Positions 531 through 48,131 of a stretch of DNA of 54,033 nt are shown here, piece by piece; position 1 is the stretch's first letter, and each line of letters starts with the position of its first letter. The translations under genes and the position numbers were made by a program. A model generated the notes under the pieces. That model was not told the origin of the DNA, made no database searches, and saw only the letters and a list, made by a program, of their open reading frames with translations. The stretch is taken from the NCBI GenBank assembly GCA_016217905.1, contig JACRFL010000006.1, forward strand, positions 1 through 54,033, in the 5' to 3' direction. This stretch comes from Candidatus Kaiserbacteria bacterium. GTDB taxonomy: Bacteria > Patescibacteriota > Minisyncoccia > Phycocordibacterales > Phycocordibacteraceae.

Positions 531-1403
531 TTACGCGCTATTGGCAGCAGCGTCAATAAAGGCATCGAGGTCGCCTTCGAGGACCTTTTCCGGGTTGGAG
601 GATTCGTAGTCGGTACGGTGATCTTTGACCATTTTGTAGGGATGGAGGACATAGGAGCGGATCTGGCTCCCCCACTCATTCGCCGTCGTTGCCGCAATCG
701 AGCGGTCTTTTGTTACTGCCTCGCGTTCTGCCTCTTCCTTAGCAAATATTTTCGCTTTCAGGAGTTCGAGCGCCTTCTCGCGGTTCGCCAGCTGGCTGCG
801 CTCGCTTGAAATATGCACCGAAAGGTTGGTCGGCTTGTGGAGGATACGCACCGCGGTCTCGCGTTTGTTCACATTCTGTCCGCCCGCGCCTCCGGCGCGG
901 GCGAATTGTATCTCGAGATCGTCCGGTTTAAGCTCCACTTTGTCGGTCGGAACAAGCGTGGGCAACACTTCCACAAGCGCGAAGCTGGTCTGCCGCTTCG
1001 CGCTAGCGTTAAAGGGCGACTGACGCACGAGGCGATGCACACCCGCTTCGTGTTTAAGGCGGCCATACGCTCCGTTTCCGGCAATCTCAAGCGTCACATT
1101 GCGGTACCCGCCGTGGTCGTTTTCATTTGCATGCAGCTCGCGCACTCCCCAGCCCCTTTTCGCCGCGTACCCCTCGTACATGCGGCGGAGCATGCGCGCG
1201 AAGTCTTCGGCATCGTCGCCGCCCGCGCCCGCAAGTATCGCGAGTGTTGCATTGCCGGAATCGTGCGGGTCGCCTCCCCCGCCCTCTTTGAGCGACTGGT
1301 ACTCGCGCACGGTGCGTTGCGCAGCATTCACGTCAGCCCAAAAGTCGGGCGATGCCATCATCGCTTCGAGTTCTTGTAATCGCCGTTCCCCTTTCTCGTC
1401 CAT
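531..1403 (-). CDS. prfB: Peptide chain release factor 2 (short N-terminal domain)
   Basis: GGAGGQNVNKRETAVRI (GGQ) and HRLVRQSPFNASAKRQTSF (SPF) motifs; 290 aa. Confidence 0.93.
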   Translation of the reverse strand: MDEKGERRLQELEAMMASPDFWADVNAAQRTVREYQSLKEGGGGDPHDSGNATLAILAGAGGDDAEDFARMLRRMYEGYAAKRGWGVRELHANENDHGGYRNVTLEIAGNGAYGRLKHEAGVHRLVRQSPFNASAKRQTSFALVEVLPTLVPTDKVELKPDDLEIQFARAGGAGGQNVNKRETAVRILHKPTNLSVHISSERSQLANREKALELLKAKIFAKEEAEREAVTKDRSIAATTANEWGSQIRSYVLHPYKMVKDHRTDYESSNPEKVLEGDLDAFIDAAANSA

Positions 1404-1429
1404 AAAACGAGTATAGCAAGATATTTTTG

Positions 1430-1502
1430 AGCCGCCTCTCAGATTTGAACTGAGGACCTACCCCTTACGAAGGGGTTGCTCTACCAACTGAGCTAAGGCG
1501 GC
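1430..1502 (-). tRNA. tRNA-Thr(CGT)
   Basis: Cloverleaf GCCGCCT..AGGCGGC; anticodon loop TTCGTAA in an ACCCC/GGGGT stem; CCA not encoded. Confidence 0.92.
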
Positions 1503-1586
1503 ACCTCTTCCTTCTATCATGGAAACGCCGTCGGGAAAAGAAGAAGAGGCAGCCCGCGGGCCGCCTCTTTTGAAGAACTTGCTAAC

Positions 1587-2684
1587 TCACTTGATGGCCT
1601 CGAGCTTTTTGCCGTCGCCTTCAGAAGGCGGCATTGTGCTTTTCACCATCTCGGCGAAAAACGCTGCGAATTCCGCACTGCCAAAGGGCGTACCCACCGC
1701 CGGATTTTTCGGCTTCCCGAGAATCCAGTAGGTGGCGCCGATGCGGCCGTCCGGATGCGTCGATGCTTCCGTCTTAGAGAACGCTGCGGCCAGGCCGACC
1801 ACAGCTCCCAGCGCGGGATTGCTACTGCCGATGATGCCGGCTGCGGCGCCCCCGAGAGAAAAGCCATTTCCTATCGCGGCGGTGCCGAGCGCCGTCCCGA
1901 TCGACTGCTCCGGCGACACCACGTAGATCTCGGAATACCCGTCCAGATTTCTGAAAACGTACTTCACCACGTCGTCGCGGACGACGTTGATATCGACCTT
2001 GCTTTCAGAACCTTTCTTGGCGGTCACCATTGCGGTGCCGATGCAGACGTAGTTACCGGCTGAGGACGGAAAGCGCGGCAGCACTTTCTTGAGCGATTCG
2101 CCGGTGCGCTTCGCCTTGTAGTCCGGAAGGGACGCGAAGACGATACTCGTGTTCCCGGAGAACCCGCCGCTCGCGTCGGTGAACGACTCGTCGCTTCCGG
2201 TGTACTCCGGCTCACACTTCCTCTCGAAGTACAGGCTCGCGGCGACGCCGTTGATGTTGGCAGGGTTCGAGAGCGGGCCGAAGCTGAACACTTGCGGTGC
2301 AGCAACAGCGACGCCAGGCATTGCCGGCAATGCAACAGGGATCTTTGTTGATTCACTGTTGATCGTCAAGCTCGTCTGCTGACTCGGCGTTACCGTCGTC
2401 GTCACAGGTCCGGTTGCCGCTGACGACGGACCGGTAACTGACGTTGCACCGGAAGTGGACGGGCCCACGGTTGCCGTCGCGCTGGAAGGCCCGGTTACCG
2501 CCGATGCTCCGGAGTTTAGGTTCGCATTGAGCTGGTTCCCGTTTGCCGCCGCTCCCGCGGTAGCATTCGATCCCGCGGACGCATCCGCGTTCGCCGTATT
2601 GTCGGCGGAAGCAGGTTCGATCATTGCAAGCAGCACAGCAACGGCTGCCGCCTTTACTGCGACGTTTGTACGGTTTGTGCGCAT
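1587..2684 (-). CDS. Secreted hypothetical protein with Ala/Ser/Thr/Gly-rich low-complexity N-terminal region
   Basis: 365 aa; signal peptide; VTGPSSATATVGPSTSGATSVTGPSSAATGP repeats; SD GGAG upstream of ATG. Confidence 0.75.
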   Translation of the reverse strand: MRTNRTNVAVKAAAVAVLLAMIEPASADNTANADASAGSNATAGAAANGNQLNANLNSGASAVTGPSSATATVGPSTSGATSVTGPSSAATGPVTTTVTPSQQTSLTINSESTKIPVALPAMPGVAVAAPQVFSFGPLSNPANINGVAASLYFERKCEPEYTGSDESFTDASGGFSGNTSIVFASLPDYKAKRTGESLKKVLPRFPSSAGNYVCIGTAMVTAKKGSESKVDINVVRDDVVKYVFRNLDGYSEIYVVSPEQSIGTALGTAAIGNGFSLGGAAAGIIGSSNPALGAVVGLAAAFSKTEASTHPDGRIGATYWILGKPKNPAVGTPFGSAEFAAFFAEMVKSTMPPSEGDGKKLEAIK

Positions 2685-2767
2685 TCACTTCTCCTTCAAT
2701 TCAATTTGATGAAAAACCGGGACAGGGAATTGCTCCCCTGTCCCGGAGAATGGTCTTCCGCCGCGGC

Positions 2768-3163
2768 TTACCAGTGCCAGCTGGTTGCCGACACCATGCC
2801 GAATGTGCTGGTGGACGACGAGACGTTGCCGTAGGAGGCGCTGCTTGCCCCCGCCGAGACGCTCGACGCCGACAGCGTGAAGTACGGGCTTTGCGAAGCG
2901 AACCCGCCCCCTGCGATACTTGCAGAGATTACCCCAGATCCGTAGCCGGCAGTGGATCCCTGGACATCTCCAAAGGCCGCCAGATTTGCGCCGCGTGCAA
3001 CCGCGACCTGCTGGACGGACCCGAAGAGACTTGCGGAGCCGCTCCCGGCGAACGCGGAGCTGCCCGCAACCGAGACGTTCCCCCACACACTGTCGGCAAA
3101 TGCCGGAGTAGCGCCGAGGGATGCCGTGACGATGATGGCCGCAAGGGCTAAGAAACGTTTCAT
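2768..3163 (-). CDS. Small secreted Ser/Gly/Ala-rich protein
   Basis: 131 aa from ATG 3163: MKRFLALAAIIVTASLGATPAFADSVWGNVSVAG...SWHW; signal peptide; SD GGAAAGGAAC. Confidence 0.75.
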   Translation of the reverse strand: MKRFLALAAIIVTASLGATPAFADSVWGNVSVAGSSAFAGSGSASLFGSVQQVAVARGANLAAFGDVQGSTAGYGSGVISASIAGGGFASQSPYFTLSASSVSAGASSASYGNVSSSTSTFGMVSATSWHW

Positions 3164-3332
3164 GATGTTCCTTTCCAATCCAAGTTTAACTACACCATTT
3201 CCTTGCGATACTGACAAGGACCATAGAACGGGGCTTTGGGACTTTCCCATCGGCCTCGTATCCAGTCGGAAGACTACAGAATCACTGTATATTTGTCAAA
3301 TTCGTGTTGTATACTGTCGTTACCTTTGATTC

Positions 3333-3408: not shown

Positions 3409-3574
3409 GAGCGAGGGTGCGTGGAAATGCATGTCCCCATGCATTTCCACGCCGCCCGAGCGAGCCGAAAGAAAAGCGTGCAAGCAACGCTTATCGCGGC
3501 GAACTCTTATTTCTCGCACCAAGCCATACTAGCTGAGTTCCCAAACATTTTCAATTTTCGTATATACTGTCCCC

Positions 3575-3928
3575 ATGGAAGGACTCTCCCATTACGCGAA
3601 AGAAGAACGCCCCTGGGGCAATTTCGAGCGCTTCACGCTGAACGAAAAAACGACGGTGAAGATCGTTACGGTCAATGCTAGAGAATCCATTAGCCTACAG
3701 ACGCACGAGTATCGCGACGAATTCTGGCGTGTCATCAAGGGTACGGGCGTCATTCGCATCGGCGAGAAGGACAACGACGCCCATGAAGGTGACGCCTTCT
3801 TCAGTCCGCGCGAGAGCGAGCACCGCGTCACGGGCGGCCTCGAGGGACTCGTCTTTCTCGAGATAGCCTTCGGCGACTTCGACGAAAGCGATATCAAGCG
3901 CCTCGAAGACCGCTACGGTCGGGCGTAA
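3575..3928 (+). CDS. Cupin protein, mannose-6-phosphate isomerase type II C-terminal-like
   Basis: 117 aa; PWGNFERF...SLQTHEYRDEFWRVIKGTGVIRIGEKD; TATACT 6 nt before ATG. Confidence 0.85.
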   Translation: MEGLSHYAKEERPWGNFERFTLNEKTTVKIVTVNARESISLQTHEYRDEFWRVIKGTGVIRIGEKDNDAHEGDAFFSPRESEHRVTGGLEGLVFLEIAFGDFDESDIKRLEDRYGRA

Positions 3929-3929
3929 A
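3907..3929 (+). repeat. 23-bp direct repeat copy 1 (3' end of cupin gene)
   Basis: agaccgctacggtcgggcgtaaa, identical to 6039-6061; contains dyad GACCG-CTA-CGGTC. Confidence 0.93.
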
Positions 3930-4001
3930 GTCAAAAACTAATGTATGGTAGTCTTTAGTCAAAGGTGTTCTTTGACAATCTAAAATAGAAAGGAGATAAA
4001 C

Positions 4002-4430
4002 ATGGCGGATCAAAACACAACTCAACATTCTCTCAAAAAAGACAAGTATGTGAATACCCGCGGTGGTAATTCGCATTTTCTTGATCTTTTTTGCAGTAAG
4101 TGCAATCAATATTTTGCCCTCTATCAAAAAAACGGGCATGGTAGATTGCTCCGAATGTATCTCGATCGAATCTTTGCGCCGCAGGAGCTCGCGCTTTTGC
4201 AGTCAAAGATGAGCAACAAAACTGAAATGCCAAACTTGAAGTGCCCGAAGTGTAATGTACTCATTGGTACGCCAATGGTTTATGAGGCGGAGAGAAGGCT
4301 GGCGTTTCGGCTCATTCACGGCTCGTTTGTGAAAAAGAAAAGCGACGGAGTTTATCCGCCTTCGCACCAAAACCAATCCCATGAAAAAGGAGGAAATAAT
4401 GATTACGAAAAAATTAACTTTCGGCAATAA
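4002..4430 (+). CDS. Zinc-ribbon-like hypothetical protein
   Basis: 142 aa with CSKC...CPKC pairs; SD gaaaggagataaac. Confidence 0.65.
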   Translation: MADQNTTQHSLKKDKYVNTRGGNSHFLDLFCSKCNQYFALYQKNGHGRLLRMYLDRIFAPQELALLQSKMSNKTEMPNLKCPKCNVLIGTPMVYEAERRLAFRLIHGSFVKKKSDGVYPPSHQNQSHEKGGNNDYEKINFRQ

Positions 4431-5091
4431 AGTCCTTAAGTTCTACAAGACCCTTGCATTACCACATATTCCTTTGAAAGGGATAGAGGTTATCCAACCA
4501 TACCAGAATCAGGAAGTACGAGGATATATGGAAAAATTTTTCAACAAATTTTTCCGAGACACAAGAAAGCGTATTTTTGTACTTGGCATTAACCCGGGAC
4601 GATTTGGTTCCGGCACTACAGGCATCCCGTTTACCGACCCTGTTGCGCTTGAAAGCGCATGTGATATTGGCAATAAGTTGGTAAAACGCCGAGAAATCTC
4701 ATCTGAATTCATATACCAGTTTATTAAACACTGGGGTGGCCCTCGTGTCTTTTATCGCGATTTTTTTCTTACTGCGGTATCACCGATTGGCTTTGTGCAA
4801 GGTGGAGTAAATTGTAATTATTATAGTCATCCCACATTACTCAAAGCGGTAAGACCGTTTATCGTCGATACACTCACTGCGCAGTTTGCTTTTGGTGCTC
4901 GAAAAAATAAGGTCATCGTGCTTGGTAGTGGTAAAAACCAAAAAGTATTCAATGACTTAAATCTAGAATACGGCTGGTTCAAAGAGGTGTATGTTCTGGA
5001 ACACCCGCGATTCATCATGCAGTACCGCAGACGGGAGATGCAAGACTACCTTAATAAATACCAAGATATTTTTTCTCGTGCTCTCTTGTGA
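4399..5091 (+). CDS. SMUG2-like uracil-DNA glycosylase family protein
   Basis: VLGINPGRFGSGTTGIPFTDP, NYYSHP, LEHPRFIMQYRRREM; SD aaggagg before ATG 4399. Confidence 0.75.
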   Translation: MITKKLTFGNKVLKFYKTLALPHIPLKGIEVIQPYQNQEVRGYMEKFFNKFFRDTRKRIFVLGINPGRFGSGTTGIPFTDPVALESACDIGNKLVKRREISSEFIYQFIKHWGGPRVFYRDFFLTAVSPIGFVQGGVNCNYYSHPTLLKAVRPFIVDTLTAQFAFGARKNKVIVLGSGKNQKVFNDLNLEYGWFKEVYVLEHPRFIMQYRRREMQDYLNKYQDIFSRALL

Positions 5092-5170
5092 AAAAACTTG
5101 GTAATATTTGTCTTACATGATACACTCCACGCTGGTACATTAGTTCATCAACAACAGAAAGGAGAACGAG

Positions 5171-5983
5171 ATGCAAGAACAGGCTATCATCGAAACTCAA
5201 TTGGAGTTTTACAGAAAGGGTGGTGCGGGTTGCTTGTTCGCCGCCCACGCGGCAAGAGATCCTTCCAAATACGAGTGGAGACTCTCGGTCAGCAATGTCG
5301 ATAAAGTTCGAATCGAGGAGTTGATACAGTCGGCTATTTCTCTAGCCGGTGTGTCCACGCAGAGCATCATCTTTCCGTCAGTTATGGAGCAGGAGGATTT
5401 GAAAAATTTGCTCTTGACCTTGAAAGAAACGTCGTCCGTGTCCCTTGAACAGGAGGAAGAATTTGAGGGTGCGGTGTGTCTTGGCTACCGGGTCAATGTT
5501 GGCGACTTGAAATCGTGGATGACAGGGTTCGGGAGCTTTGATTTTTTCCCTAAGACGCGTCAAGCGGTTTTTGCGGAAATCGTATTTCGCACAAAACCGA
5601 GGCCTGACTATAACTGGGCAATGAAAGAAACGCCGCCTGGAATTATTCATCTCGCTGATATGGACATGAAAGGGATGAGAGAAAATCAGTTTAAGGCTCT
5701 CTGGTACGGCTCTTTCGACAACACCGAGAACATACTTGGACACAAACCGGACTTGAGAAGCGCAGCAAAAACAACCTTCGCTGTTCCACTAGAGTTATGG
5801 AAAGGATAACGGGGCGCGGACGGAAGCCGCTTGCGAAGCGCGCGTGAAGAGTTGGAAGCATACGAATCTTCTCGATATATCGGAATTTGTAATTTCGAGA
5901 TTGTCGCGGAAGAAAACCAGGTACCGAAAATCGCTCATGCGATCTACGCCAATTATCTCCGGCTCTTTCGTCAACAACCATAA
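5171..5983 (+). CDS. Hypothetical protein; in-frame TAA at 5807-5809, same frame open to 5983
   Basis: 212 aa to TAA; the next 57 codons are stop-free and protein-like (SRLRSAREELEAYESSRYIGICNFEIVAEENQVPKIAHAIYANYLRLFRQQP); SD aaaggag. Confidence 0.55.
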
Positions 5984-6035
5984 CCTCGCAGTTTCATTTC
6001 AGAGATTTCTGAATGGACTGCGAGGTTTTCTTTTT
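5983..6035 (+). terminator. Rho-independent terminator closing the cassette
   Basis: aacctcgcagt....actgcgaggtt stem followed by a T-rich tract. Confidence 0.75.
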
Positions 6036-6038
6036 TGT

Positions 6039-6061
6039 AGACCGCTACGGTCGGGCGTAAA
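6039..6061 (+). repeat. 23-bp direct repeat copy 2
   Basis: Identical to 3907-3929. Confidence 0.93.
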
Positions 6062-6098
6062 ACACAAAACACGCCTTCTCGGCGCGTTTTGTTGAATG

Positions 6099-6367: not shown

Positions 6368-6406
6368 AATAGAGAAACACTACCAAATGCGCTTCATCAA
6401 GACAAT

Positions 6407-11174: not shown

Positions 11175-12295
11175 GGTAGTCCGATCGCTCGCTTGAACAT
11201 AGTACGAACATCTTCTCTAGATTGTGTTGCATCTGCGTAATTGTAGGTCGGATCGAAAATCGCATCCATATTAATTTCCAGTTTACCGTTCCCAAGCGGT
11301 TCTTGGAGAGCAATCTTCCGGAGGCAATACGCGATGGCGATGCCCGAGAGTGTTGCAGCGTCTCCAAGCTGCGGCCATGAATACAGCGTCGTGCCAACTT
11401 CTTTGAGAGAGAGCAACATGCGCGGGACAACGAGATCAGCTCCAGCAACTTTCGTCGCAAGCTTCGGTAGCTCATGGGGCGAGAAGGATTTGAATTCCTC
11501 AAGGGTGATGTCGCCAAGGGCCTCATTGAAAAGTTTTGTCGAAGGATCGAGATCAAAACGTTCTATTTCGACAATGACACCGTCGCCATTATCGGTCGCC
11601 ATGACGACCGGAATGCCCCGCTCACGCGCTGCGAGCCGCAACCGGATCTTAATCTCAAGATCATCGGTCTCCTCAACGAGCACATCCATATCCTTGAGAA
11701 ACTCGTTTATATTCTCTTCTGTCACGCCCGACTCAAATGTCTCAATTTCTGCATACGGATTCAGCTGATAGATGTATTCGCGTACGAGATCGGTCTTCTT
11801 GCGACCCACAGCGAGGAAATCGGACCGGATGCGATTGAGGTTTGAGGGAGATACTTCATCCGGGTCGGCGATCTTAATGCGCCGCGCGCCGCCCATAAGC
11901 GCAGCAGTCATGGCACCATGGCTGCCAACGCTAAGTCCCGCGTATGCGACGCGCAGTCCATAGAACTTTTCTTGTTCTTCTTTCGTAATGATGTTGCGAT
12001 TGCGCGCGGTGCGTATCTCCTGATGCTCGTCGTGCGGGAGATAGTGCGCAAGAGTGCTGTTCCACGGGAAGAAGAACCACTCCCCCACTTCTTCAGTCGG
12101 CTTTCCGGCTGCATATTCTTCTGAAAACGCTTTCACCTCGTTTGTATGATCCTTAATGAACTTGAATCGCGGATTACGGATGAGAAACAAATCCTCGAGG
12201 AGCAAATCATAGCGATCAATAGTCGCTGATGGCTGCAGGCGGTCGCGGAATGCAGAAAACGACTCCCTCGAACGATCTAATTGTTCCGGTTTCAT
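11171..12295 (-). CDS. ThiF/MoeB E1-like protein (MoeY/Rv1355c N-terminal-like)
   Basis: YAGLSVGSHGAMTAALMGGARRIKIADPDEVSPSNLNR. Confidence 0.82.
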   Translation of the reverse strand: MKPEQLDRSRESFSAFRDRLQPSATIDRYDLLLEDLFLIRNPRFKFIKDHTNEVKAFSEEYAAGKPTEEVGEWFFFPWNSTLAHYLPHDEHQEIRTARNRNIITKEEQEKFYGLRVAYAGLSVGSHGAMTAALMGGARRIKIADPDEVSPSNLNRIRSDFLAVGRKKTDLVREYIYQLNPYAEIETFESGVTEENINEFLKDMDVLVEETDDLEIKIRLRLAARERGIPVVMATDNGDGVIVEIERFDLDPSTKLFNEALGDITLEEFKSFSPHELPKLATKVAGADLVVPRMLLSLKEVGTTLYSWPQLGDAATLSGIAIAYCLRKIALQEPLGNGKLEINMDAIFDPTYNYADATQSREDVRTMFKRAIGLP

Positions 12296-12405
12296 ACCGG
12301 AATAGTACCACGCACGGCAGCCGTCAGTAAGAAACGAATCTGCTCGGGAACCTCCTTTTGGAACGAAAATCCCTTCTCGAAATCATCCGCCGACGAAAAC
12401 GTCAT
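12292..12405 (-). CDS. 37-aa ORF, first cistron of the ThiF operon
   Basis: MTFSSADDFEKGFSFQKEVPEQIRFLLTAAVRGTIPV*; TGA overlaps the ThiF ATG; TAAACT 6 nt before ATG. Confidence 0.5.
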   Translation of the reverse strand: MTFSSADDFEKGFSFQKEVPEQIRFLLTAAVRGTIPV

Positions 12406-12455
12406 GCTTTAAGTTTAACACGCGGTTATTCGTAATAGATACTCTAGGTAAAAAA

Positions 12456-12941
12456 TCACATCTCTTTTAAAACAGCTTGTTTATAGGCTTTCGTAAATTC
12501 GTGACCGGTATTTTTTACAATATTTACTTTACCAAGCTTAAATACTCGTTGTGTCATTTCCTTGTCACCACAAAATAGAACAAATTTCTTTGCTTTTGGT
12601 TTCCCATATCTCATCCTTCTCAATTCGTTCGTAGTTTCTTCTCCAAATAGTTTTATCATGTGATTGATGGCATGATTTACATCGCTTCCAAGTATCTCCG
12701 ACATGGAGCAATAGATTCCCTTCTTTACGGGGGCCTTCAGTTTATAGGCGATAAGAGCTCCCGTTGAAAATCCGAATACGATCGAATTTGAATCAATCTT
12801 AGTTTTTGAAAGTTGCGAAAGTGAATTCCCTTTTAGTTGCAAATCTAAAAATTCTACATTGTATTTATCTTTAGTTTTAGATATAAGCCATTGGTAATCA
12901 CGAATTGTTTCTTTGTATCCAGGAATTATATAAAGTTTCAT
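12456..12941 (-). CDS. Alpha/beta-hydrolase-like protein
   Basis: 161 aa; IIPGYKE, FGFSTGALIAY, NTGHEF; TATAAT 7 nt before ATG. Confidence 0.6.
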   Translation of the reverse strand: MKLYIIPGYKETIRDYQWLISKTKDKYNVEFLDLQLKGNSLSQLSKTKIDSNSIVFGFSTGALIAYKLKAPVKKGIYCSMSEILGSDVNHAINHMIKLFGEETTNELRRMRYGKPKAKKFVLFCGDKEMTQRVFKLGKVNIVKNTGHEFTKAYKQAVLKEM

Positions 12942-12953
12942 ATATGAAATTAT

Positions 12954-12981
12954 AAGGGGAACACCGGAAAGTGTTCCCCTT
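12954..12981. terminator. Bidirectional terminator hairpin
   Basis: aaggggaacac-cggaaa-gtgttcccctt, 11-bp perfect stem. Confidence 0.85.
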
Positions 12982-13196: not shown

Positions 13197-13330
13197 CTCA
13201 AAACTCCAGTAAAGGACATTGATGCTGCCAAGGGAATCTCGACAGAAACCATCAACACCTACGGATATCGTAGCATAGTGTGGTGGCACCCGCTACCATC
13301 CTCATCACTTTTTATAGATATACTAGATAC

Positions 13331-13852
13331 ATGAATACCAAACTAGCGACTGAGCTACAGAAGATGGTTGATAGTGATCAGAAAGCCATCCAGAAACGAC
13401 AGAAAAAGGGAGTGGTTAATGTACGCATTTTGAAACTCAATACAAAGAGACTTAAAGAAATAGTAGCTAGCTATGGGTGGCCTTCTGTCTCTCTTGTGGG
13501 TAAGGAGGGAAGTAAAAATGCATGGTTACTTGTGCAGCACGCCTATCATGATCTCCGTTTTCAGAAAAAATGTCTTGCGTTAATGTCACGAGCAGCAAAA
13601 AAGAACCCTGAAGATATTATTCCAATGCATATTGCGTTTCTGACTGATCGAATACGAGTAAACGAGGGGAAACCTCAGAAATTTGGCACGCAATTTTACA
13701 CAAATAAAAAAGAAGAATTTACCTACTGGCCTGTTCGAGATATAAAAAATGTCGACAAACGACGGGCAGCGTATGGTATTGAACCATTCGCAGAATATGT
13801 GGAGGCGGCAAAATCATTTCAGCTTGCACCGATAAAGACAATTCTTAAGTGA
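13331..13852 (+). CDS. DUF6624-like protein
   Basis: YGWPSVSLVGKEGSKNAWLLVQHAYHDLRFQ...FLTDRIRVNEGKPQKFGTQF; TATACT 6 nt before ATG. Confidence 0.75.
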   Translation: MNTKLATELQKMVDSDQKAIQKRQKKGVVNVRILKLNTKRLKEIVASYGWPSVSLVGKEGSKNAWLLVQHAYHDLRFQKKCLALMSRAAKKNPEDIIPMHIAFLTDRIRVNEGKPQKFGTQFYTNKKEEFTYWPVRDIKNVDKRRAAYGIEPFAEYVEAAKSFQLAPIKTILK

Positions 13853-16615: not shown

Positions 16616-16664
16616 GATGATCTTTAATTCCCCTGGCCGAAGCATTTTTGCTATACTTGCAGTA

Positions 16665-17363
16665 ATGATGTCTGAAACGGAAGCTCGACAAAAAATGGAA
16701 GAAATCCTGCACGACCTCTGGGACAGAGGCCATGCAAATACGACTGGCGTTTCTGTCAGTATACGTCTTGATGATGGGAATATTCTTGTTGATCAGACAG
16801 GAGCGGGGTTTCGAAAATGTAGAGTAGCTGCGGGAGATTTTCTTATTATAGACCTTAATGGGAACCTCGTCCGTCCTGCACCACTTATACCCCAGAAACT
16901 CGCACCGGTTAATACAGGTGTTCATCTCGCCTATTATAAAAATCCCCTTGCACAAGCTTGCATCCACGCCCATGCACCTTATTCGCAAGTTTTTGCATGT
17001 CGTGGAGAGACAATTAACCCCTATACACTCCAATCACAAATATTGGGTGAAGTTTTATGCATCCATGCAGATGATGCAGATCTAAAAAAAGAATACCGGG
17101 AAAGGAAACCTTTTATAGAAGTGCCATCGGGATTGCATGCTCGACCGGACGTTTGGTATGTTATGCAAAAGGTTGCCGAACTCACTGCAAAAGCACTTGA
17201 ACCGCGCAACCACGAGATGGAAAAGCATGGATTGGCCATAACTCATTACCAACATGGCATATTCGTATTCGGTCGAAACCTTGATGAGGCATTTGATAAT
17301 CTTGAAAGGGTTGAGGCAAACGCGCGTACTATTATTTTTTCTCGAATGATGGGTCAAATATGA
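16665..17363 (+). CDS. Class II aldolase/adducin-like protein
   Basis: IHAHAPYSQVFACRGE, HGLAITHYQHGIFVFGRNLDEAF; TATACT 7 nt before ATG. Confidence 0.8.
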   Translation: MMSETEARQKMEEILHDLWDRGHANTTGVSVSIRLDDGNILVDQTGAGFRKCRVAAGDFLIIDLNGNLVRPAPLIPQKLAPVNTGVHLAYYKNPLAQACIHAHAPYSQVFACRGETINPYTLQSQILGEVLCIHADDADLKKEYRERKPFIEVPSGLHARPDVWYVMQKVAELTAKALEPRNHEMEKHGLAITHYQHGIFVFGRNLDEAFDNLERVEANARTIIFSRMMGQI

Positions 17364-18702: not shown

Positions 18703-19286
18703 CTAATCCTTCGTCTCGAGGTATTCGGTAAATCCTCTTTCATCTTTCACATCTTGTCGCATAACCGCTTTATAGAAATCAGTGCTGAGGACACCGTCTC
18801 GATATCCCTTACCGTCTTTCCATAACTCTTTCAGCCGTAAGATGACAATACTCTGCTCCTGAGTAATTGTGTTGAGCTCGGTCGCATCATAGTCGCCGAC
18901 TTCTCCGCGCTTCCCGAACCACATATCAATCTTCCATTCGCCCGAGGGCTGTACCGTGCGCAAACCGACATAGTACGCACGCGGGAAATTGATACGATCT
19001 TTACGCGCGTCACGCCGCAATTCGCGATAATTATTGAATTGCACTTTCTGGATGGTCGGCATCTTGGCGAGTACTGAAAGAAGATCTCCCACTGCCCCCA
19101 GACTTGGTTCTCCCATCCACGCATGGATATCGATACGGGCATAATCATGAGACCATTCTCCACACTCCCCACGACCTCGGGCTCTGAAATCGTTCCGATG
19201 ACTGAAAGCAGGTCGAGCTCCTTCAGAATCCGCCGCGCTTCTTGCTGTAAAGACTTCGCTCGAGCTACTAGCTGTTCGTCCGTCAT
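18703..19286 (-). pseudogene. Nucleotidyltransferase-superfamily-like gene, frameshifted
   Basis: MTDEQLVARAKSLQQEARRILKELDLLSVIGTISEPEVVGSVENGLMIMP (one frame) + DIHAWMGEPSLGAVGDLLSVL...ETKD (another). Confidence 0.55.
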
Positions 19287-19376
19287 GCAATCACTCTAGC
19301 ATTTCATAGTGTTGATCGAGTTGATCTACGAGAACGAACATGATATGATGAAATCATATTTAATTATAGTACTTCT

Positions 19377-19586
19377 ATGTCCACACTCTCTGTCCCCCTC
19401 ACCCCGAAGCTTGAAGAATTCATAAACGACCAGGTGAAAAGCGGTCGTGCCGCCAATAAAGCCGATGTCGTCCGGCGCGCTCTCGTCGCCTTCTCTGAAG
19501 AAGGAGCTATTCAGGATGTTCTCAAAGCGATGCGAGAACCAGCCATACGGGGCGATGTTCGAGAATTGATGAAGAAATTCCAGTAA
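19377..19586 (+). CDS. parD: ParD-like ribbon-helix-helix antitoxin
   Basis: SVPLTPKLEEFINDQVKSGRAANKADVVRRAL; TATAGT 6 nt before ATG; followed by a RelE-like toxin. Confidence 0.78.
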   Translation: MSTLSVPLTPKLEEFINDQVKSGRAANKADVVRRALVAFSEEGAIQDVLKAMREPAIRGDVRELMKKFQ

Positions 19587-20651: not shown

Positions 20652-20679
20652 TTCATATCACCTGTTCTAGAATGTAGGC

Positions 20680-21217
20680 ATGAATACGTACACCATTCAG
20701 CAATCGTCGTTTACCCATTTCTTCACCCTCGGACACACGAAGCGCCCCTTTCTGGATCCTCGTCCGCCTGTATCTCGGCTACGAGTGGCTCATGGCCGGA
20801 TGGGACAAGGTGGTGAATCCCGTATGGTTCGGCAACGACGCGGGCGCCGCAGTGCAGGGATTCGTCCAGGGCGCGCTCTCTAAGACCGCCGGTGCGCATC
20901 CGGACGTGCAGATGTGGTACGCGTCGTTCCTCCAGAACGCGGTGCTCCCGAATGCCACCGTCTGGGCGAACGCCGTCGCGGTCGGCGAGGTACTCGTCGG
21001 ACTCGGGCTCATCGTCGGACTCTTCACCGGCGCCGCGGCATTCTTCGGATTCTTTATGAATATCAACTATCTGCTCGCAGGCACCGTGAGCGCGAACCCT
21101 GTCCTTCTTCTGCTCGCGCTCGGCCTCATGAGCGCGAGACGCGTCGCTGGTCATTGGGGCCTCGACCGCTATGCGCGGCCATTCCTCGAGCAGAAGTTTT
21201 ACTCGCGCAGACTCTGA
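20680..21217 (+). pseudogene. DoxX family protein, frameshifted near the start
   Basis: MNTYTIQQSSFTHFFT | (extra C in ccc 20726-20728) | SDTRSAPFWILVRLYLGYEWLMAGWDKV... continuing to 21217. Confidence 0.78.
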
Positions 21218-21229
21218 TATATTGAGCGA

Positions 21230-22522
21230 ATGCGGCGGACGATACAAAACTTTGACGCGCTTGCGACGAGTGCGCTCCGCCTCGACGCGCTCGAGATTGC
21301 GGAGGCCGGGTACGCGGCTATCGACATCGGAAACGCTCTTCCCCGCGCGCTGTGCGTCGAAGACGGCGCACTCCGCCTCGGCGGGCGAACCTTCCCGCTT
21401 GTCGGGCGGCGCGTCTTTTTCGTCGGCGTCGGCAAATGCGCCTTCGCGGCCGCGAAGGCGGTCAAGGCGATTCTCGGCAATGCGCTTGAAAGCGGCATCG
21501 CGTTTGACGTGTCGTCGGCGGACATTCCTGAACTGGCGAAAATCGAGGCCTATATCGGCACGCATCCGCTACCGAGCGAGGCGAACGAGCGTGCGACGAG
21601 GCGCGTCATAGAGTTCCTTTCCGGCCGCACCAAGGATGACCTCGTCATCGTGCTCATTTCAGGCGGCGGCTCGGCTCTTCTGTGCCTCCCTCCCGCAACC
21701 ATGACCTGTGTCGACGATGGCGCGCTTTGGAGCGCGCTTACCGCGCGCGGCGCCTCTATTCAAGACATCAACACGGTGCGCAAGCATACTTCCCGCGCGC
21801 GCGGCGGCGGCCTCGCCGCCGCTGCGTATCCCGCCGAAATCGTGTCATGCATCATTTCCGACGTACCCGGGGACGACATCGGATATATCGCCTCCGGCCC
21901 GACCGCGCTCGACACCTCGACTATTGCCGACGCACGAGCAATCCTCGCGCGCTACGGCGTCGCCTCCGCTTCAAATGTCGAATGCATTGAGACTCCGAAA
22001 GATCCGAAGTATTTTGAACGCGTGACCAACATCCTGCTCCTTTCGAGCCGCGACGCGCTCGCCGCGATGAAAGAAGAGGCCGAACGAAGGGGATACGCGG
22101 CCGTCGTCGAGAATGACCGCGTTACCGGAGAAGCGCGCGATATCGGACGTGCAATCGCGACGAAGATCCATGATTCCCCCGCGAAAACCGCGCTTCTCTA
22201 CGCCGGCGAGAGCACCGTTACGATAAGCGCTTCCGCCGGCAACGGCGGGCGCAACCAGGAGCTCGCGCTCGCGGCGCTTCCCGAGCTGCATACCGACGAG
22301 CTCGTACTTTCGTTTGCGTCTGACGGACACGACAACACCGACCACGCGGGAGCAATTGCGGATGTGAACTCGTTCGCTCATGCGCAAGAAAAAAATCTTT
22401 CACCGACGGAATTTCTCGACGAACATCGCTCATATGATTTCTTCTTGAAGACCGGCGACGCGCTTCTCACCGGGTATACTGGTTCCAATGTGTCCGACCT
22501 TATTATCGCAATGAAACAATGA
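21230..22522 (+). CDS. Glycerate 2-kinase (MOFRL family)
   Basis: LISGGGSALLCLPP, VRKHTSRARGGGLA, GNGGRNQELALAALPE, SDGHDNTDHAGA. Confidence 0.88.
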   Translation: MRRTIQNFDALATSALRLDALEIAEAGYAAIDIGNALPRALCVEDGALRLGGRTFPLVGRRVFFVGVGKCAFAAAKAVKAILGNALESGIAFDVSSADIPELAKIEAYIGTHPLPSEANERATRRVIEFLSGRTKDDLVIVLISGGGSALLCLPPATMTCVDDGALWSALTARGASIQDINTVRKHTSRARGGGLAAAAYPAEIVSCIISDVPGDDIGYIASGPTALDTSTIADARAILARYGVASASNVECIETPKDPKYFERVTNILLLSSRDALAAMKEEAERRGYAAVVENDRVTGEARDIGRAIATKIHDSPAKTALLYAGESTVTISASAGNGGRNQELALAALPELHTDELVLSFASDGHDNTDHAGAIADVNSFAHAQEKNLSPTEFLDEHRSYDFFLKTGDALLTGYTGSNVSDLIIAMKQ

Positions 22523-30650: not shown

Positions 30651-31703
30651 TCACGCACTCTGCCTCCTGATGTTCTGATAAAGCGAGAGGAATGTGAACA
30701 ACGTGCTGGTGCAGAGCGGCCCGAGAAGCACACCCACGGGGCCGAAGAATATGAGACCGCCGAATACGGACAAGAACACAGGGAGCGGGTGCAACTGCAT
30801 CCCCCTCCCCATCAAGCGGGGACTGAGGAAATTATCTATCAAACCGACTGCAAGAACGCTCCAGATCAGGAGCCCTATCGCGGGAGTGGTCGCTCCGGCG
30901 ATGAATAAATATGCAATACCAGGTATAAGGATGAGCGAGGTACCGATGCCAGGCACAAGCGCTGAGAATGCGGCCACGACTCCCCACAAGACACTGTTCG
31001 GAACGCCGAATATCGCAAACCCGATGCCGGTCAGCACGCCCTGTATGAGCGCGACAACAAGACTTCCTCGCACGACCGACTGTACAGAGAGCCTGAGCTG
31101 CGAGAACACCATATTATCGTCAGCATCCACAAGAGGACTTACCCGAACGATCGTCTGCTTGAGACTGTCACCGTCACGAAACAGGTAGTAGAGCGCGATG
31201 AGAAAGAGGAAGAGCGTGGCGAGGAATCGAGCGGCACTGCCGAAGGCACCACCAAGATTCTGGATGAGCCATTGCAGACCGTCTTTCACGTATTGATCGA
31301 ATGATGTCGAGAGATCTGCCGCAGAGAGTGAGAGGTGCGGTGCGTACGTCGCAACTGCGCTGTTCACGAAACCGAATACTGTATCGAGATACGCTCTGCT
31401 CGTGCCGTCCGACAAGGAGACATAGAGATCCTGCGCATCATTCGCTATCTGTACGGCCACGAACGAAAGAGGACCAAGGATACATACGAGAGCAATCAGG
31501 ATCGTGACGAACGCAGCGAACCCCGGCGAGCGATGTGTCCAGCGGTATATACCCTCGTAGAGCGGGTGGAGTACGGTCGCAAATATCGCCGCAAGCACAA
31601 GCGCTATGAGGAACGGGCGGAAGATGAAAAAGACGAGCACAGACGAAGCGGCTATCAGGCCAAGGAGGAAATACGGCTGCAATATCTTTACGTTCATATC
31701 CAC
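30651..31703 (-). CDS. AI-2E family transporter (PerM)
   Basis: Polytopic; ALVPGIGTSLILIPG, DNFLSPRLMGRG. Start probably ATG 31697 (TATACT 7 nt upstream). Confidence 0.85.
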   Translation of the reverse strand: MDMNVKILQPYFLLGLIAASSVLVFFIFRPFLIALVLAAIFATVLHPLYEGIYRWTHRSPGFAAFVTILIALVCILGPLSFVAVQIANDAQDLYVSLSDGTSRAYLDTVFGFVNSAVATYAPHLSLSAADLSTSFDQYVKDGLQWLIQNLGGAFGSAARFLATLFLFLIALYYLFRDGDSLKQTIVRVSPLVDADDNMVFSQLRLSVQSVVRGSLVVALIQGVLTGIGFAIFGVPNSVLWGVVAAFSALVPGIGTSLILIPGIAYLFIAGATTPAIGLLIWSVLAVGLIDNFLSPRLMGRGMQLHPLPVFLSVFGGLIFFGPVGVLLGPLCTSTLFTFLSLYQNIRRQSA

Positions 31704-31715
31704 CAGTATATCCCA

Positions 31716-31877
31716 TTAAGGACAGCTCGATTCCTCGCCACGCTCTTCTTCTGTTTTCTCCTCTTCTCCCTCGATAGGTACGGCGGATTCTTCTGCCCAT
31801 TTTTTAAAAGACTTCTCCGCCTTGTCTAACTCTTCCTTGCCATATGCCCTCCCGATGAATTTTGGTCCTTTCTCCAT
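31716..31877 (-). CDS. Small acidic hypothetical protein
   Basis: 53 aa MEKGPKFIGRAYGKEELDKAEKSFKKWAEES...; TATACT 7 nt before ATG. Confidence 0.45.
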   Translation of the reverse strand: MEKGPKFIGRAYGKEELDKAEKSFKKWAEESAVPIEGEEEKTEEERGEESSCP

Positions 31878-31901
31878 TGAGAGAAGTATAGCTTGAATCC
31901 A

Positions 31902-35237: not shown

Positions 35238-35531
35238 CTATGCAGTTACCGGGACACGCACATTCACAGACTGCTGAGAAATCATCGGAGGGTCCCATGC
35301 GATTTGTCCCTTGTGCCAACCGAGATCAGACAAAACGGCGTCGACCGTATTGTTTTCGATGATGTCCTTAAAGAAGATCGCGACAAGCTCGCCAAAACGT
35401 TGCTTAGCTTCCGCCTCATCCTTGCCTGTGGTGGGAATATCGAGTGCTGGAGTGTAGACAACGACCCTCTCACCCTCTTGTATAAAAGAGACCGGCAAAT
35501 TCAATTCAAGCTGGTGCGCAATTTGATCCAT
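35238..35531 (-). CDS. HicB-like antitoxin
   Basis: LNLPVSFIQEGERVVVYTPALDIPTTGKDEAEAKQRFGELVAIFFKDI; TACCAT 6 nt before ATG. Confidence 0.75.
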   Translation of the reverse strand: MDQIAHQLELNLPVSFIQEGERVVVYTPALDIPTTGKDEAEAKQRFGELVAIFFKDIIENNTVDAVLSDLGWHKGQIAWDPPMISQQSVNVRVPVTA

Positions 35532-35685
35532 GGGGACATGGTAGCGTGTTCAGCAATCCAAAGGTTCTTCCGCGACCCTTCTTCCCTCTTTAGCGACGGG
35601 GGCCGGTATGGGTCTGTTTGAGATGGTTGGGAGATTCCCAGCGAGTTCTGAGAGCCGAACAAGCGGGGCGGTACTGTATTGATAT

Positions 35686-36176
35686 TTATTTTCCTGATTT
35701 GGTCAAACTCAAATATACGGCTAGCTGTTCGGCTCTAGCAGGTATACCGCGTTCAGCGCGCATTGCGTCAGTGATGCCGGACTCCTCATCGCTAAGCATA
35801 GTGGCTTGTTCATACTCTCCATTCTCCGATTTCTTGAATTGCGTGCCCCATTTTTGTTTGATGAAAGCCATTTCGCACGCTCGTTGCCTTGCTCAGCGGA
35901 AATGGAAGCCAATCCTTCAGCTACCTTATAGTCTTCGGCATTCCGACTGTGCTGAAAAATCATCGCGAGATTGTATAAGTTATCGCCCGATAGAATTATC
36001 TTGCCTTCTTTATATTCGTTATAGATTTCTCGACCCCGTTGTAGTCGCAGCGAATCATTCGAGATCATGCGCTGAATACCACCCTCTTCAAAGGCACTTG
36101 CTCGGTCTGCTTGGTCACTTTGGAAAAGTCGCAAGGCCCTGTCGAGCGATTCTTTAAAAGGCAACTCTTCGTTCAT
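35686..36176 (-). pseudogene. Hypothetical TPR/Sel1-like protein, frameshifted
   Basis: MNEELPFKESLDRALRLF...SAEQGNERAK + MAFIKQKWGTQFKKSENGEYEQATMLSDEESG.. in another frame. Confidence 0.55.
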
Positions 36177-36203
36177 ATTTGTTAGTATAGCTTGAACTAA
36201 GAA

Positions 36204-38892: not shown

Positions 38893-39456
38893 TCAAATCA
38901 CTTTGAACTCACGCAGGACGGTGCCGTAGTGCGCGACGGTGCGACGCGCGAGCGTCTCGGAAATGGGAAACGCGGCGCCCTCATGCGCTATCCGGTTGCG
39001 CACCCGATGCGCTTCCCAGGCGTTTTGCAGCGTCCGAATCTCGGTCGCATCGACGGAGCGCAACCGTTCGCCGATGTTGTCGCCCTGGTACCCGTGTCGC
39101 GCGAGCGCTTCGTCGAGCATGATGTCGGCTTCGATGATCGCTTCGCGCCACTCGCTCGGCTGCGCGCCGCTGGCAAGTGATTCGATGTGCTGCCAGCGCG
39201 ACCGGACTCCTTCGGCCGTCTCGGGCGCAACAAGGAGCGTGTTGTAGTATTTTTCTTCTCGCTCGCGCAGCTCGAAGAGGCGCACGGTCGCGTATATGAT
39301 GAGGAAGAGAGCAAGAGCAGAAAGTACGTACCCGATGACGATGAGGTACAGCCACAGGTGCGCGAGCCATGCGGCGAGTCCGGCGGCCGAGACGGGGCAC
39401 GCACCATGGAAGCATTCGTAGACGAGGCGGAAGAAGTACTCGACATTGACCTGCAT
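38893..39456 (-). CDS. Hypothetical membrane protein
   Basis: 187 aa with an N-terminal TM helix and conserved-looking helical domain. Confidence 0.65.
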   Translation of the reverse strand: MQVNVEYFFRLVYECFHGACPVSAAGLAAWLAHLWLYLIVIGYVLSALALFLIIYATVRLFELREREEKYYNTLLVAPETAEGVRSRWQHIESLASGAQPSEWREAIIEADIMLDEALARHGYQGDNIGERLRSVDATEIRTLQNAWEAHRVRNRIAHEGAAFPISETLARRTVAHYGTVLREFKVI

Positions 39457-39486
39457 ATGCGCCTAGTATACGCGGCGCACGCGGCC

Positions 39487-40978: not shown

Positions 40979-40995
40979 ATCTCGTCGGCGGAAGG

Positions 40996-41289
40996 TTAAT
41001 CATGTTGGATGATCTGCTTCACGGAAAGCGCGTCGCCCTCGCGCGCGGGGAATTGTTCCGCGAGTTTCTTCGTATACACTCCCGACGCGTGCGGCTCTCC
41101 GTCCGCACGCACGACGTTGCGCAGGGGCGGCTTCTCCTCTCCGGGCGACGACGGGATATCGAGCTTCTCAAGCTGGCCGACGTACGCGAGTATCGCGTCG
41201 AACTCGCGCGTGAACGCCGCAAGCTCCGCATCGGCGACCGTGATACGGGCGAGGGCCGCCAACTTTTGCACGTCTTCGGCCGTCGTCAT
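40996..41289 (-). CDS. gatC: Asp/Glu-tRNA amidotransferase subunit C
   Basis: MTTAEDVQKLAALARITVADAELAAFTREFDAILAYVGQL; TAGAGT 7 nt before ATG. Confidence 0.92.
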   Translation of the reverse strand: MTTAEDVQKLAALARITVADAELAAFTREFDAILAYVGQLEKLDIPSSPGEEKPPLRNVVRADGEPHASGVYTKKLAEQFPAREGDALSVKQIIQHD

Positions 41290-41302
41290 GATGAAAACTC
41301 TA

Positions 41303-43808
<2,506 letters not shown>

Positions 43809-43818
<10 letters not shown>

Positions 43819-45564: not shown

Positions 45565-46286
45565 TGGGTGAAGTAGGCGAGGAGGAAGCCGGCGGCGAGG
45601 AAAGGGGCAAACGGCACCTCAACTCCCATTCTAGAGCCGACAGGCCGCTTCAACAATATCGCTATCCCGATAACGGCACCTATCCAGAATGAGAACATGA
45701 GTCCGGGAAGCGCGGCACGGCCGGCAAGAAGGGCGAGGCCGAACGCAAGCGGCGCATCCGAGAAGCCCATAGCGCGCCCGCGCGAGAGGAGGTGGACGAG
45801 CGCGAGACTCCCCGCGATAAGAAGCGCAGCCAGAAGCTCTTCGAGGAATACCGTCGGAGACGGAGCGGATAGGAAACCGGTCGCGGCGGCGGCTACGATA
45901 AACGCGGCGAGAAGCGTCGGCGGCAGTATCTGGTGCGAAAGGTCGTAGAGCACGAGTGCGAGTAGGATGGAAAGAGAAAGGAGCAGAAGCAGGAGCACGC
46001 TGGAAAATCTAACATGAAGGTACGCGAGGACAAAGAGCCCGCCAAGGAGGAGTTCGGTTAGGGGTGCCGCTAGCGAAATGCGCGCGCCGCAGCACTGGGC
46101 GCGCCCGCCCGAAGCGAGATAGGAGACGACCGGCACGAGGGCAAGAGGCGAAAGAGGCGCATTGCACGCGTCGCAACGGGAGCGGCCGGTGAAGAAGCTT
46201 GCTCCGGTGTGCAGGCGTGCGACAAGGACGCCGACGAAGCTCGCAACAATCGCCCCGAAGAAAAAGAAAGAAAGGAGGACTGTCAT
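45522..46286 (-). CDS. pilD: Prepilin peptidase (A24 family)
   Basis: CDACNAPLSPLALVPVVSYL, YDLSHQILP, GFSDAPLAFGLALLAG. Confidence 0.85.
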   Translation of the reverse strand: MTVLLSFFFFGAIVASFVGVLVARLHTGASFFTGRSRCDACNAPLSPLALVPVVSYLASGGRAQCCGARISLAAPLTELLLGGLFVLAYLHVRFSSVLLLLLLSLSILLALVLYDLSHQILPPTLLAAFIVAAAATGFLSAPSPTVFLEELLAALLIAGSLALVHLLSRGRAMGFSDAPLAFGLALLAGRAALPGLMFSFWIGAVIGIAILLKRPVGSRMGVEVPFAPFLAAGFLLAYFTQWNPFAFVAALSGA

Positions 46287-46349
46287 GCGCGCATCATAGC
46301 AGAAGCCGCGGCGCTGCCGCGGCTTCTGCTCTGCCGGCTAAAAACGCGG

Positions 46350-46805
46350 CTAGCAGCTCGTGTTGGTACCGAGCGCCGTTGCGGTGGTGGTCCCCGTACC
46401 AAGACTATCGACGCAATAATACTTCCCGGGCGTCGAGACGAGTTCCGCCGACGCCGCATAAGCCGCGCCGAGGGCGGCTACGTTGCAGACGATTGTGCCC
46501 GTCGGACCGTTCGCCGTGTCGGCCGCCGCCATCTGCTTCTGGACCGTCGGATCGCTGAAGAGATTGTCCGCGGTAACGCAGCCAGCCTCAAATGCCGCAT
46601 TCGTACCATAGTTGCCGTTGGTGTTGTAGTAAATCGCGGCCTGCGTCCGGACGCCGACAACGTCGGCCTGGACAGCCGCGTCGCTCCCCTTCGAGCGGGC
46701 GGTGTTAAGAGACGCGAGCACGACCGCCGAGAGGATGCCGATGATGGCGATCACGACGAGGAGCTCGATGAGGGTGAAGCCGCGGGTAATGTGTTTGTGT
46801 GACAT
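46350..46805 (-). CDS. pilA: Major-type type IV pilin, paralog 1
   Basis: RGFTLIELLVVIAIIGILSAVVLASLNTARSKG. Confidence 0.9.
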   Translation of the reverse strand: MSHKHITRGFTLIELLVVIAIIGILSAVVLASLNTARSKGSDAAVQADVVGVRTQAAIYYNTNGNYGTNAAFEAGCVTADNLFSDPTVQKQMAAADTANGPTGTIVCNVAALGAAYAASAELVSTPGKYYCVDSLGTGTTTATALGTNTSC

Positions 46806-46819
46806 GTTGATTAATTAGG

Positions 46820-47317
46820 TTAATTGCAGGTAGTTTGTCCGGATGAGCTATGCGCCGGCGCAGCTCCGCTAAGCACCCCCGAGTAGGCGGTACCGACATT
46901 GTTCGCGCCACGCGCAATGCCCGATGAATCGATGCACCACGCGCCCGTTGTCAGAGGCGCGGCAAACGAATATGCCGAACCGGTGATGCCGCAGTCGCTG
47001 TCGCTGCCTATGGCATTCTTGGATGCCTTGAGTGCGTTTTGAATGGTCACGTCGGCCATAAGCGAGTTCGCTGTCGTGAGTGTCGAGCACACTGAGCTTG
47101 AGATGGTTCCGCCCGTATTGTAGGAGTTGCCGAGAAGGCCGTAGCGAATCTCTGCCTGGGTCCGTATGGTCGAGAGATTGGCTTTAACAGCCGCGTCATT
47201 GCCGCGCGAGCGGGCGGTGTTAAGAGACGCGAGCACGACCGCCGAGAGGATGCCGATGATGGCGATCACGACGAGGAGCTCGATGAGGGTAAAACCTCGG
47301 GAACGATTTTTGTACAT
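46820..47317 (-). CDS. pilA: Major-type type IV pilin, paralog 2
   Basis: MYKNRSRGFTLIELLVVIAIIGILSAVVLASLNTARSRG; start at 47317. Confidence 0.9.
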   Translation of the reverse strand: MYKNRSRGFTLIELLVVIAIIGILSAVVLASLNTARSRGNDAAVKANLSTIRTQAEIRYGLLGNSYNTGGTISSSVCSTLTTANSLMADVTIQNALKASKNAIGSDSDCGITGSAYSFAAPLTTGAWCIDSSGIARGANNVGTAYSGVLSGAAPAHSSSGQTTCN

Positions 47318-47395
47318 AATGTATTGTGCGCGGCTAATAGCTGGATTATACGCCCCCCGCGCCCTTATGGAAACAAGGGTGTGGATAGCCGTCTC

Positions 47396-47416
47396 TGCGG
47401 AAGACAGTCTTCCGCA
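47396..47416. repeat. 21-nt palindrome flanking RAYT, copy 1
   Basis: tgcggaagac-a-gtcttccgca. Confidence 0.92.
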
Positions 47417-47441
47417 AAAATCGTATGCTAGAATTAAGGGC

Positions 47442-48131
47442 ATGTATCGCGAGCCATACGGCGCAGGTTCGTTTGTACACGTGATACAACGTGGGACGCG
47501 TGGTTCGCCGATTGTTCGCGATGAGGCTGACCGAGAACGATTCCTATTTATGTTGGCGCATTTCAACGATGAGTTTGCGCCAGAGAATTGGTTTCGCGAT
47601 ATCAGCGCTAACGACCAGCCAAGATTTGAGCGACCGATCTTCTGGCCAGAACAAAAGAAGATAGTCCACATTCTGGGATTTTGCCTCCTCACGAATCACT
47701 TCCATCTTTTGCTTGAGGAAGTGACCGAGGGTGGCATTTCTAAATTTTTGCACCGAATAGGAACTGCCGTTTCAAAGCATTTTAACAAAAAATACGGGGA
47801 GAGCGGTTCATTGTTTCAGGGACCATATCGCTCTCGCACGATCGCCTCAGATACCCACCTGACCTATGCGAGCGCATATGTACAGGTCAAGAATGCTTTT
47901 GATATGTACCGATATGGCCTCGACGGCGCTATGAAAGCCTTTGATCAGGCGTACACATGGGCACTTAATTATCCATACTCAAGTCTCGGTGATTACGGTG
48001 GTGTGTATACTCGACCTATAGTGGACAAAATGTTGCTTTCCGAAAGGTTTACGCCAAAAGAGTATAAGACTTTTTGTCGCGATTTCTTCGGTAAGCCTGA
48101 CGTGGAAGCAGGGGCCTCGGTCTTTGAATAG
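47442..48131 (+). CDS. REP-associated tyrosine transposase (Y1 family)
   Basis: GSFVHVIQRGTRGSPIV...LGFCLLTNHFHLLLEEV...GSLFQGPYRSRTI; TAGAAT 7 nt before ATG. Confidence 0.88.
   Translation: MYREPYGAGSFVHVIQRGTRGSPIVRDEADRERFLFMLAHFNDEFAPENWFRDISANDQPRFERPIFWPEQKKIVHILGFCLLTNHFHLLLEEVTEGGISKFLHRIGTAVSKHFNKKYGESGSLFQGPYRSRTIASDTHLTYASAYVQVKNAFDMYRYGLDGAMKAFDQAYTWALNYPYSSLGDYGGVYTRPIVDKMLLSERFTPKEYKTFCRDFFGKPDVEAGASVFE

Follow-up and report, generated by a model that had tools for sequence, protein, structure and literature searches.

Boxes at gene starts in the window

The DNA analysed here (the window: 54,033 nucleotides (nt) of contig JACRFL010000006.1) belongs to a Kaiserbacteria-like patescibacterium whose genome of ~610 kb lies in 15 contigs, is 95% complete, and has a GC content of 0.57. 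Its LigA shares 81% identity with the protein of Candidatus Kaiserbacteria nzgw458, and the closest matches come from Kaiserbacteria and related Patescibacteria. The element in question is a hexamer, TANNNT, found shortly before many ATG start codons, which an earlier note on this DNA had read as a -10 promoter box fixed 6-7 nt before the start and as a mark of widespread leaderless transcription. All 17 combinations of motif, gap, and ATG given there are present at their positions (the gatC ATG being 41289 on the minus strand); the gene names NTase, DoxX, HicB, and hydrolase found no Pfam match at E 0.001. The candidate -10 boxes of the window are listed below as read from the sequence, with remarks in brackets; the gap is the number of nucleotides between the last base of the box and the start codon, and ORF stands for open reading frame.

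1403-1415, minus strand: box TATACT (1410-1415), TGn upstream, gap 6, ATG of the release factor gene at 531-1403 (box also in relatives)
3563-3577, plus strand: box TATACT, gap 6, ATG of the cupin gene at 3575-3928 (congener also boxed)
Start at 12295, minus strand: box TACTAT, gap 6 (absent from the earlier list)
12403-12417, minus strand: box TAAACT, TGn, gap 6, ATG of a 37-residue ORF (ORF itself unsupported)
12939-12954, minus strand: box TATAAT, gap 7, ATG of a 161-residue gene at 12456-12941 (no Pfam match)
13319-13333, plus strand: box TATACT, gap 6, ATG of the DUF6624 gene at 13331-13852
16652-16667, plus strand: box TATACT, TGn, gap 7, ATG of the class II aldolase gene at 16665-17363
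19284-19298, minus strand: box TAGAGT, TGn, gap 6, ATG of a 151-residue gene at 18831-19286 (no Pfam match)
19365-19379, plus strand: box TATAGT, gap 6, ATG of a ParD-like antitoxin gene at 19377-19586 (Pfam match borderline, E 0.00069)
20668-20682, plus strand: box TAGAAT, gap 6, ATG of a 67-residue ORF at 20680-20883 (no Pfam match)
21218-21232, plus strand: box TATATT, TGn, gap 6, ATG of the glycerate kinase gene at 21230-22522
31695-31710, minus strand: box TATACT, gap 7, ATG of the AI-2E transporter gene at 30651-31697 (alternative GTG 31703 inside the discriminator)
31875-31890, minus strand: box TATACT, gap 7, ATG of a 53-residue ORF (ORF unsupported)
35529-35543, minus strand: box TACCAT, gap 6, ATG of a 97-residue gene at 35238-35531 (HicB name unconfirmed)
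36174-36189, minus strand: box TATACT, gap 7, ATG of a 151-residue gene at 35721-36176
39454-39470, minus strand: box TATACT, gap 8, ATG of a 187-residue gene at 38893-39456 (absent from the earlier list)
41287-41302, minus strand: box TAGAGT, TGn, gap 7, ATG of gatC at 40996-41289 (congener also boxed)
43298-43312, minus strand: box TATACT, gap 6, ATG of ligA at 41303-43300 (box also in relatives)
47429-47444, plus strand: box TAGAAT, TGn, gap 7, ATG of the Y1 transposase (RAYT) gene at 47442-48131
50881-50895, minus strand: box TATACT, gap 6, ATG of the response regulator gene at 50458-50883 (absent from the earlier list; congener also boxed)

Genome-wide position and conservation of the box

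The positional count was extended to the whole genome (609 kb), where coding potential alone, with upstream motifs ignored, gave 541 gene calls, and the 412 of these with an ATG start formed the set for the offset counts. At gaps 0 to 10, TANNNT occurred 21, 4, 4, 11, 11, 7, 66, 34, 28, 23, and 10 times, whereas in dinucleotide shuffles the average gap held 7.3 and no gap more than 22; the peak of 21 at gap 0 is in part due to upstream stop codons, 14 of the 21 hexamers starting with TAA or TAG. The narrower motif TATA(A/C)T was found 19, 14, 10, and 6 times at gaps 6, 7, 8, and 9, where 0.34 was expected, and TATACTN6ATG gave 30 matches in the genome, as against none for the reversed pattern. 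Counted before any ATG in the genome, TATA(A/C)T appeared 90 times at gaps 6-9 and 15 times at gaps 1-4. The sharp peak predicted by the earlier note is therefore present genome-wide and beyond the shuffles, with an abrupt onset at gap 6, but the box is not fixed at 6-7 nt since its distribution tails out to gap 9, followed by a weak tail of TANNNT at gaps 10-13.

The box is also conserved among relatives, in which orthologue starts were taken from protein alignment and not from box position. For ligA, 56 of 74 lineages have TANNNT at gap 6-9; the DNA around it has diverged, and the hexamer itself varies (TATAGT, TACACT, TATCAT). The ligA matches labelled Clostridia or Syntrophomonadaceae are without a box, and L076 has a Shine-Dalgarno site instead. 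The release factor gene carries the box at gap 6-9 in 20 of 29 orthologues. Among 111 orthologues with a conserved ATG in a congener (G400), a box was present in 30 of the 35 genes boxed here but in only 11 of the 76 unboxed here (14%; p = 4e-13), whereas at control offsets the two genomes agreed weakly (gaps 12-15) or hardly at all (farther out). Directly upstream of the release factor gene lies a tRNA-Thr(CGT) gene (window 1403-1502), an arrangement shared with four relatives (L122, L138, L141, and L143). In L122, the release factor ATG abuts the tRNA 3' end with neither spacer nor box, so that tRNA processing alone could yield a nearly leaderless release factor mRNA there.

It might be argued that the pattern is an artefact of AT-rich intergenic DNA or of starts picked to fit, because intergenic DNA is more AT-rich than coding DNA and the starts of the earlier note were picked by eye. 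We consider this next to inconceivable: the starts used here came from coding potential alone, the peak was not reproduced by shuffles, TATA(A/C)T is scarce at gaps 1-4, and the orthologue starts were set by protein alignment. The shuffle, offset, and orthologue-start controls refute it.

Promoter character of the box

When the 146 boxed ATG starts were aligned on the box, a TTG-like -35 peak appeared at a spacer of 17. The TGn of an extended -10 element stands directly upstream of the box in 61 of these starts, as compared with 1-18 at shifted positions, and TATACT is the most frequent hexamer (38 of 146). The box is not confined to protein-coding genes: it lies at gap 8-9 before 13 of 39 tRNA genes, a number reached in 0 of 2000 shuffles, and TGGTATAAT is found 5 nt upstream of the Rfam-predicted 5' end of RNase P RNA. 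The signal recognition particle RNA family had no match at threshold in the genome and hence offered no second 5'-end ruler. Judged by these companions, the box is a transcription signal, as the earlier note had proposed in reading it as a -10 box, and has the form of a sigma-70 extended -10 element; its conservation in relatives agrees with this identity.

One rival holds that the box is not a promoter but a translational signal, i.e. a site close to the start that is rich in A/U, unstructured, or bound by S1. The genome encodes IF3 and a protein with S1 repeats, the score of which is below the rpsA cut-off, and operon-internal genes, too, are preceded by an A/T-enriched stretch at -13 to -5; these last two observations would suit such a signal. 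A translational role does not, on the other hand, account for the extended -10 and -35 companions or for boxes before genes that lack a start codon altogether (tRNA and RNase P RNA), and A/U richness would not produce an asymmetric TANNNT walled at one offset. This explanation is very improbable, and it was rejected on the promoter companions and the boxes before RNA genes.

The tRNA and RNase P RNA genes also provide an independent ruler for the distance between box and transcription start (+1), placing +1 ~6-9 nt after the box. Applied to the protein-coding genes, this spacing very probably puts +1 on the AUG or within about 3 nt of it. The lack of box enrichment nearer than gap 6, the stop-codon effect at gap 0 aside, is expected if the AUG must be at or just inside the transcript. 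The start site given by the earlier note, the A of the ATG, therefore holds to within ~3 nt, leaders of 0 nt and of 1-3 nt being inseparable by spacing. A second rival builds on this latitude and proposes that the boxes are promoters of mRNAs with leaders of 1-5 nt, on which initiation would be Shine-Dalgarno-independent without being strictly leaderless. It draws on gaps 8-9, which make up 51 of the 151 counts, on the weak tail at gaps 10-13, and on the tRNA boxes at gap 8-9; against it, the counts are highest at gap 6 and drop abruptly just below it, matching the RNase P RNA spacing of 5-6 nt. We regard this proposal as unlikely, albeit deserving of some weight, and either way no space is left for a ribosome-binding site.

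Shine-Dalgarno sites are nearly absent

Genome-wide, no Shine-Dalgarno peak was found by motif or by pairing energy with an anti-Shine-Dalgarno 8-mer, a test in which a clostridial control peaked at 0.40. A search for 16S rRNA gave no match in the genome, whose 2,701 N bases equal the length of one contig (C2), probably an rRNA stretch given as N. A 5-nt Shine-Dalgarno match at gap 4-10 occurs in only 5 of the 541 called genes. Counted independently of gene calls, AAGGAG appears 25 times at gap 4-8 versus 11-18 elsewhere, an excess of ~10 genes. Among boxed genes, 5 of 152 also have a 4-nt match, and their duplex profile is low and flat. Six of the 25 AAGGAG sites fall in the window, including those at 2684 (minus strand), 18392 (minus strand), 4002, 4399, and 5171. 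The earlier note had contrasted boxed genes with secreted proteins, DUF397, and a cassette bearing clear Shine-Dalgarno sites; this contrast stands for the starts at 2684 (minus strand), 4002, 4399, and 5171, but these are an exception genome-wide, as most unboxed genes have no such site. Two of the contrasting starts are

3989-4004, plus strand: Shine-Dalgarno-type start AAAGGAG, gap 6, first cassette gene at 4002
5158-5173, plus strand: Shine-Dalgarno-type start AAAGGAG, gap 6, cassette gene at 5171

The cassette holds three Shine-Dalgarno-led genes, with starts at 4002, 4399 (UDG superfamily), and 5171, none of which was picked up by the codon model built from the genome itself. On either side of the cassette stands one copy of an imperfect 32-nt direct repeat (3907-3938 and 6039-6070; 88% alike, with the first 23 nt identical) that takes in the end of the cupin gene. 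Because of the flanking repeats and of genes missed by the genome's own codon model, the cassette (window 3907-6070) is probably acquired, inserted DNA.

In unboxed starts, the base before the ATG is a pyrimidine in 77% of cases (T 0.44, G 0.10), as compared with T 0.14 and G 0.41 before internal Met codons, and T is commonest when a same-strand neighbour is 0-30 nt away. The -1 pyrimidine may possibly provide a start context where a Shine-Dalgarno site is lacking.

Genes carrying the box and their start codons

After subtraction of a background taken from other offsets, 48% of ATG genes following a divergent neighbour and 31% of all ATG genes are boxed; such shares are lower bounds, as TANNNT misses variant -10 boxes. 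The share is lowest in overlapping genes (9%); behind a same-strand neighbour it is 29% at 0-30 nt and 22% at >100 nt. Boxed genes start with ATG in 146 cases, GTG in 9, and TTG in none, whereas the others have 266 ATG, 89 GTG, and 31 TTG starts (p = 1.5e-11). The longest-ORF starts GTG 13280, GTG 31703, and GTG 43306 lie upstream of, or right after, the -10 box, and in each case the ATG after the discriminator is the better start.

Discussion

Our analyses support, with high confidence, the interpretation that the boxes are sigma-70 -10 elements giving leaderless or nearly leaderless mRNAs, the AUG of which would be recognised without a Shine-Dalgarno helix. The promoters would be ordinary sigma-70 promoters, often with an extended -10 (TGnTATACT) and a weak TTG at a 17-nt spacer, from which RNA polymerase would start at the A of the AUG or up to about 3 nt before it. 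The ribosome would then recognise a 5'-terminal AUG, probably by initiation with 70S ribosomes, by analogy with leaderless mRNAs elsewhere. Such promoters would serve roughly one in two ATG genes behind a divergent neighbour and ~30% of all ATG genes, again as lower bounds. The remaining genes mostly lie inside operons; G is scarce ahead of their starts, and they lack Shine-Dalgarno sites. Box, spacing, promoter character, conservation, and Shine-Dalgarno absence are all evident at the sequence level, and the widespread leaderless transcription claimed by the earlier note gains support from the sharp genome-wide peak, the promoter signatures, the calibration on RNA genes, and the conservation in relatives.

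Several points weigh against this interpretation. The exact 5' ends are inferred from spacing, and gaps 7-9 leave room for leaders of 1-3 nt. About 29% of ATG genes lying <=30 nt from a same-strand upstream gene are boxed, making the split between first and internal genes blurrier than in classical leaderless genomes; alternatively, many of these genes may have promoters of their own. The difference in GTG and TTG starts could be due in part to misplaced starts in simple gene calls.

The leaderless signature itself is already known from other phyla, and the unusual side here is the near-absence of Shine-Dalgarno sites. TANNNT ~12 bp before the start has been taken to mark leaderless genes and read as the sigma-70 -10 box; such TA-led genes make up on average 19% of genes in Actinobacteria and 39% in Deinococcus-Thermus and occur in other groups too, in a table of bacterial groups that does not include Patescibacteria (Zheng et al. 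2011, PMC3160421). By another account, 21.6% of representative bacterial genomes are predicted users of leaderless transcription (figure cited by StartLink, PMC9581028). The genome studied here shares with the TA-led genes of Actinobacteria and Deinococcus-Thermus the same signature and offset, above dinucleotide shuffles, but differs from those genomes in that Shine-Dalgarno sites are nearly absent, operons included, and in that the box is clearly an extended -10. In Mycobacterium tuberculosis, many mRNAs reportedly start at the start codon from nearby -10 boxes, as mapped experimentally by Cortes et al. in 2013. Mycobacteria commonly have leaderless GTG starts, and their leadered genes retain Shine-Dalgarno sites. 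The -10 boxes close to the start codon are thus alike, with 5' ends deduced from sequence here and mapped there, whereas the boxed starts here comprise 146 ATG and only 9 GTG codons, and Shine-Dalgarno sites are all but missing. In Bacteroidetes, Shine-Dalgarno sites are scarce genome-wide and upstream regions are A-rich and G-poor (PMC3155529, PMC5397173). Our genome resembles them in this scarcity and in the A-rich, G-poor DNA upstream of its remaining genes but differs in having the promoter at the leaderless offset. Bacteroidetes transcripts are mostly leadered. A full-text literature search, its scope leaving out most subscription papers, returned no on-topic paper in which Patescibacteria, Candidate Phyla Radiation, Parcubacteria, or Saccharibacteria were linked to leaderless initiation.

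Spread across Patescibacteria

Patescibacteria are a very large, mostly uncultured group in which translation initiation is scarcely described. In a survey of 145 sampled genomes, TATA(A/C)T before any ATG was compared between gaps 6-9 and gaps 1-4, the latter chosen as the control since the reversed pattern (ATG versus GTA) is poorly matched. Gaps 6-9 exceeded gaps 1-4 at p < 0.01 in 84 of the 145 genomes and by twofold or more in 44, and 36 showed no excess (ratio under 1.2); loci around ligA likewise had an excess of boxes at the leaderless offset in most lineages sampled. As far as these counts tell, the pattern recurs in many related lineages, but not all. AGGAGG is in excess before ATG in many Patescibacteria families, by which measure Shine-Dalgarno use across the phylum is a mosaic.

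These data are compatible with a scenario in which some Patescibacteria lineages nearly gave up Shine-Dalgarno initiation, operon-first genes being leaderless and operon-internal genes lacking Shine-Dalgarno sites (perhaps relying on coupling and the -1 pyrimidine), so that leaderless initiation would be the main ribosome entry in a large bacterial group; we see the case for and against it as evenly balanced. If leaderless starts are common in many lineages, start predictions based on Shine-Dalgarno sites would often be wrong, and with them N-termini such as those of signal peptides and regulators, and the box would serve as an independent predictor of starts and promoters. This small-genome group also lends itself to asking how ribosomes start with Shine-Dalgarno pairing nearly lost. 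At the level of single families, box and AGGAGG excess occur together in f33 and f57, f2 and f25 have the box with little AGGAGG excess, and f32, f84, and f43 show no box excess.

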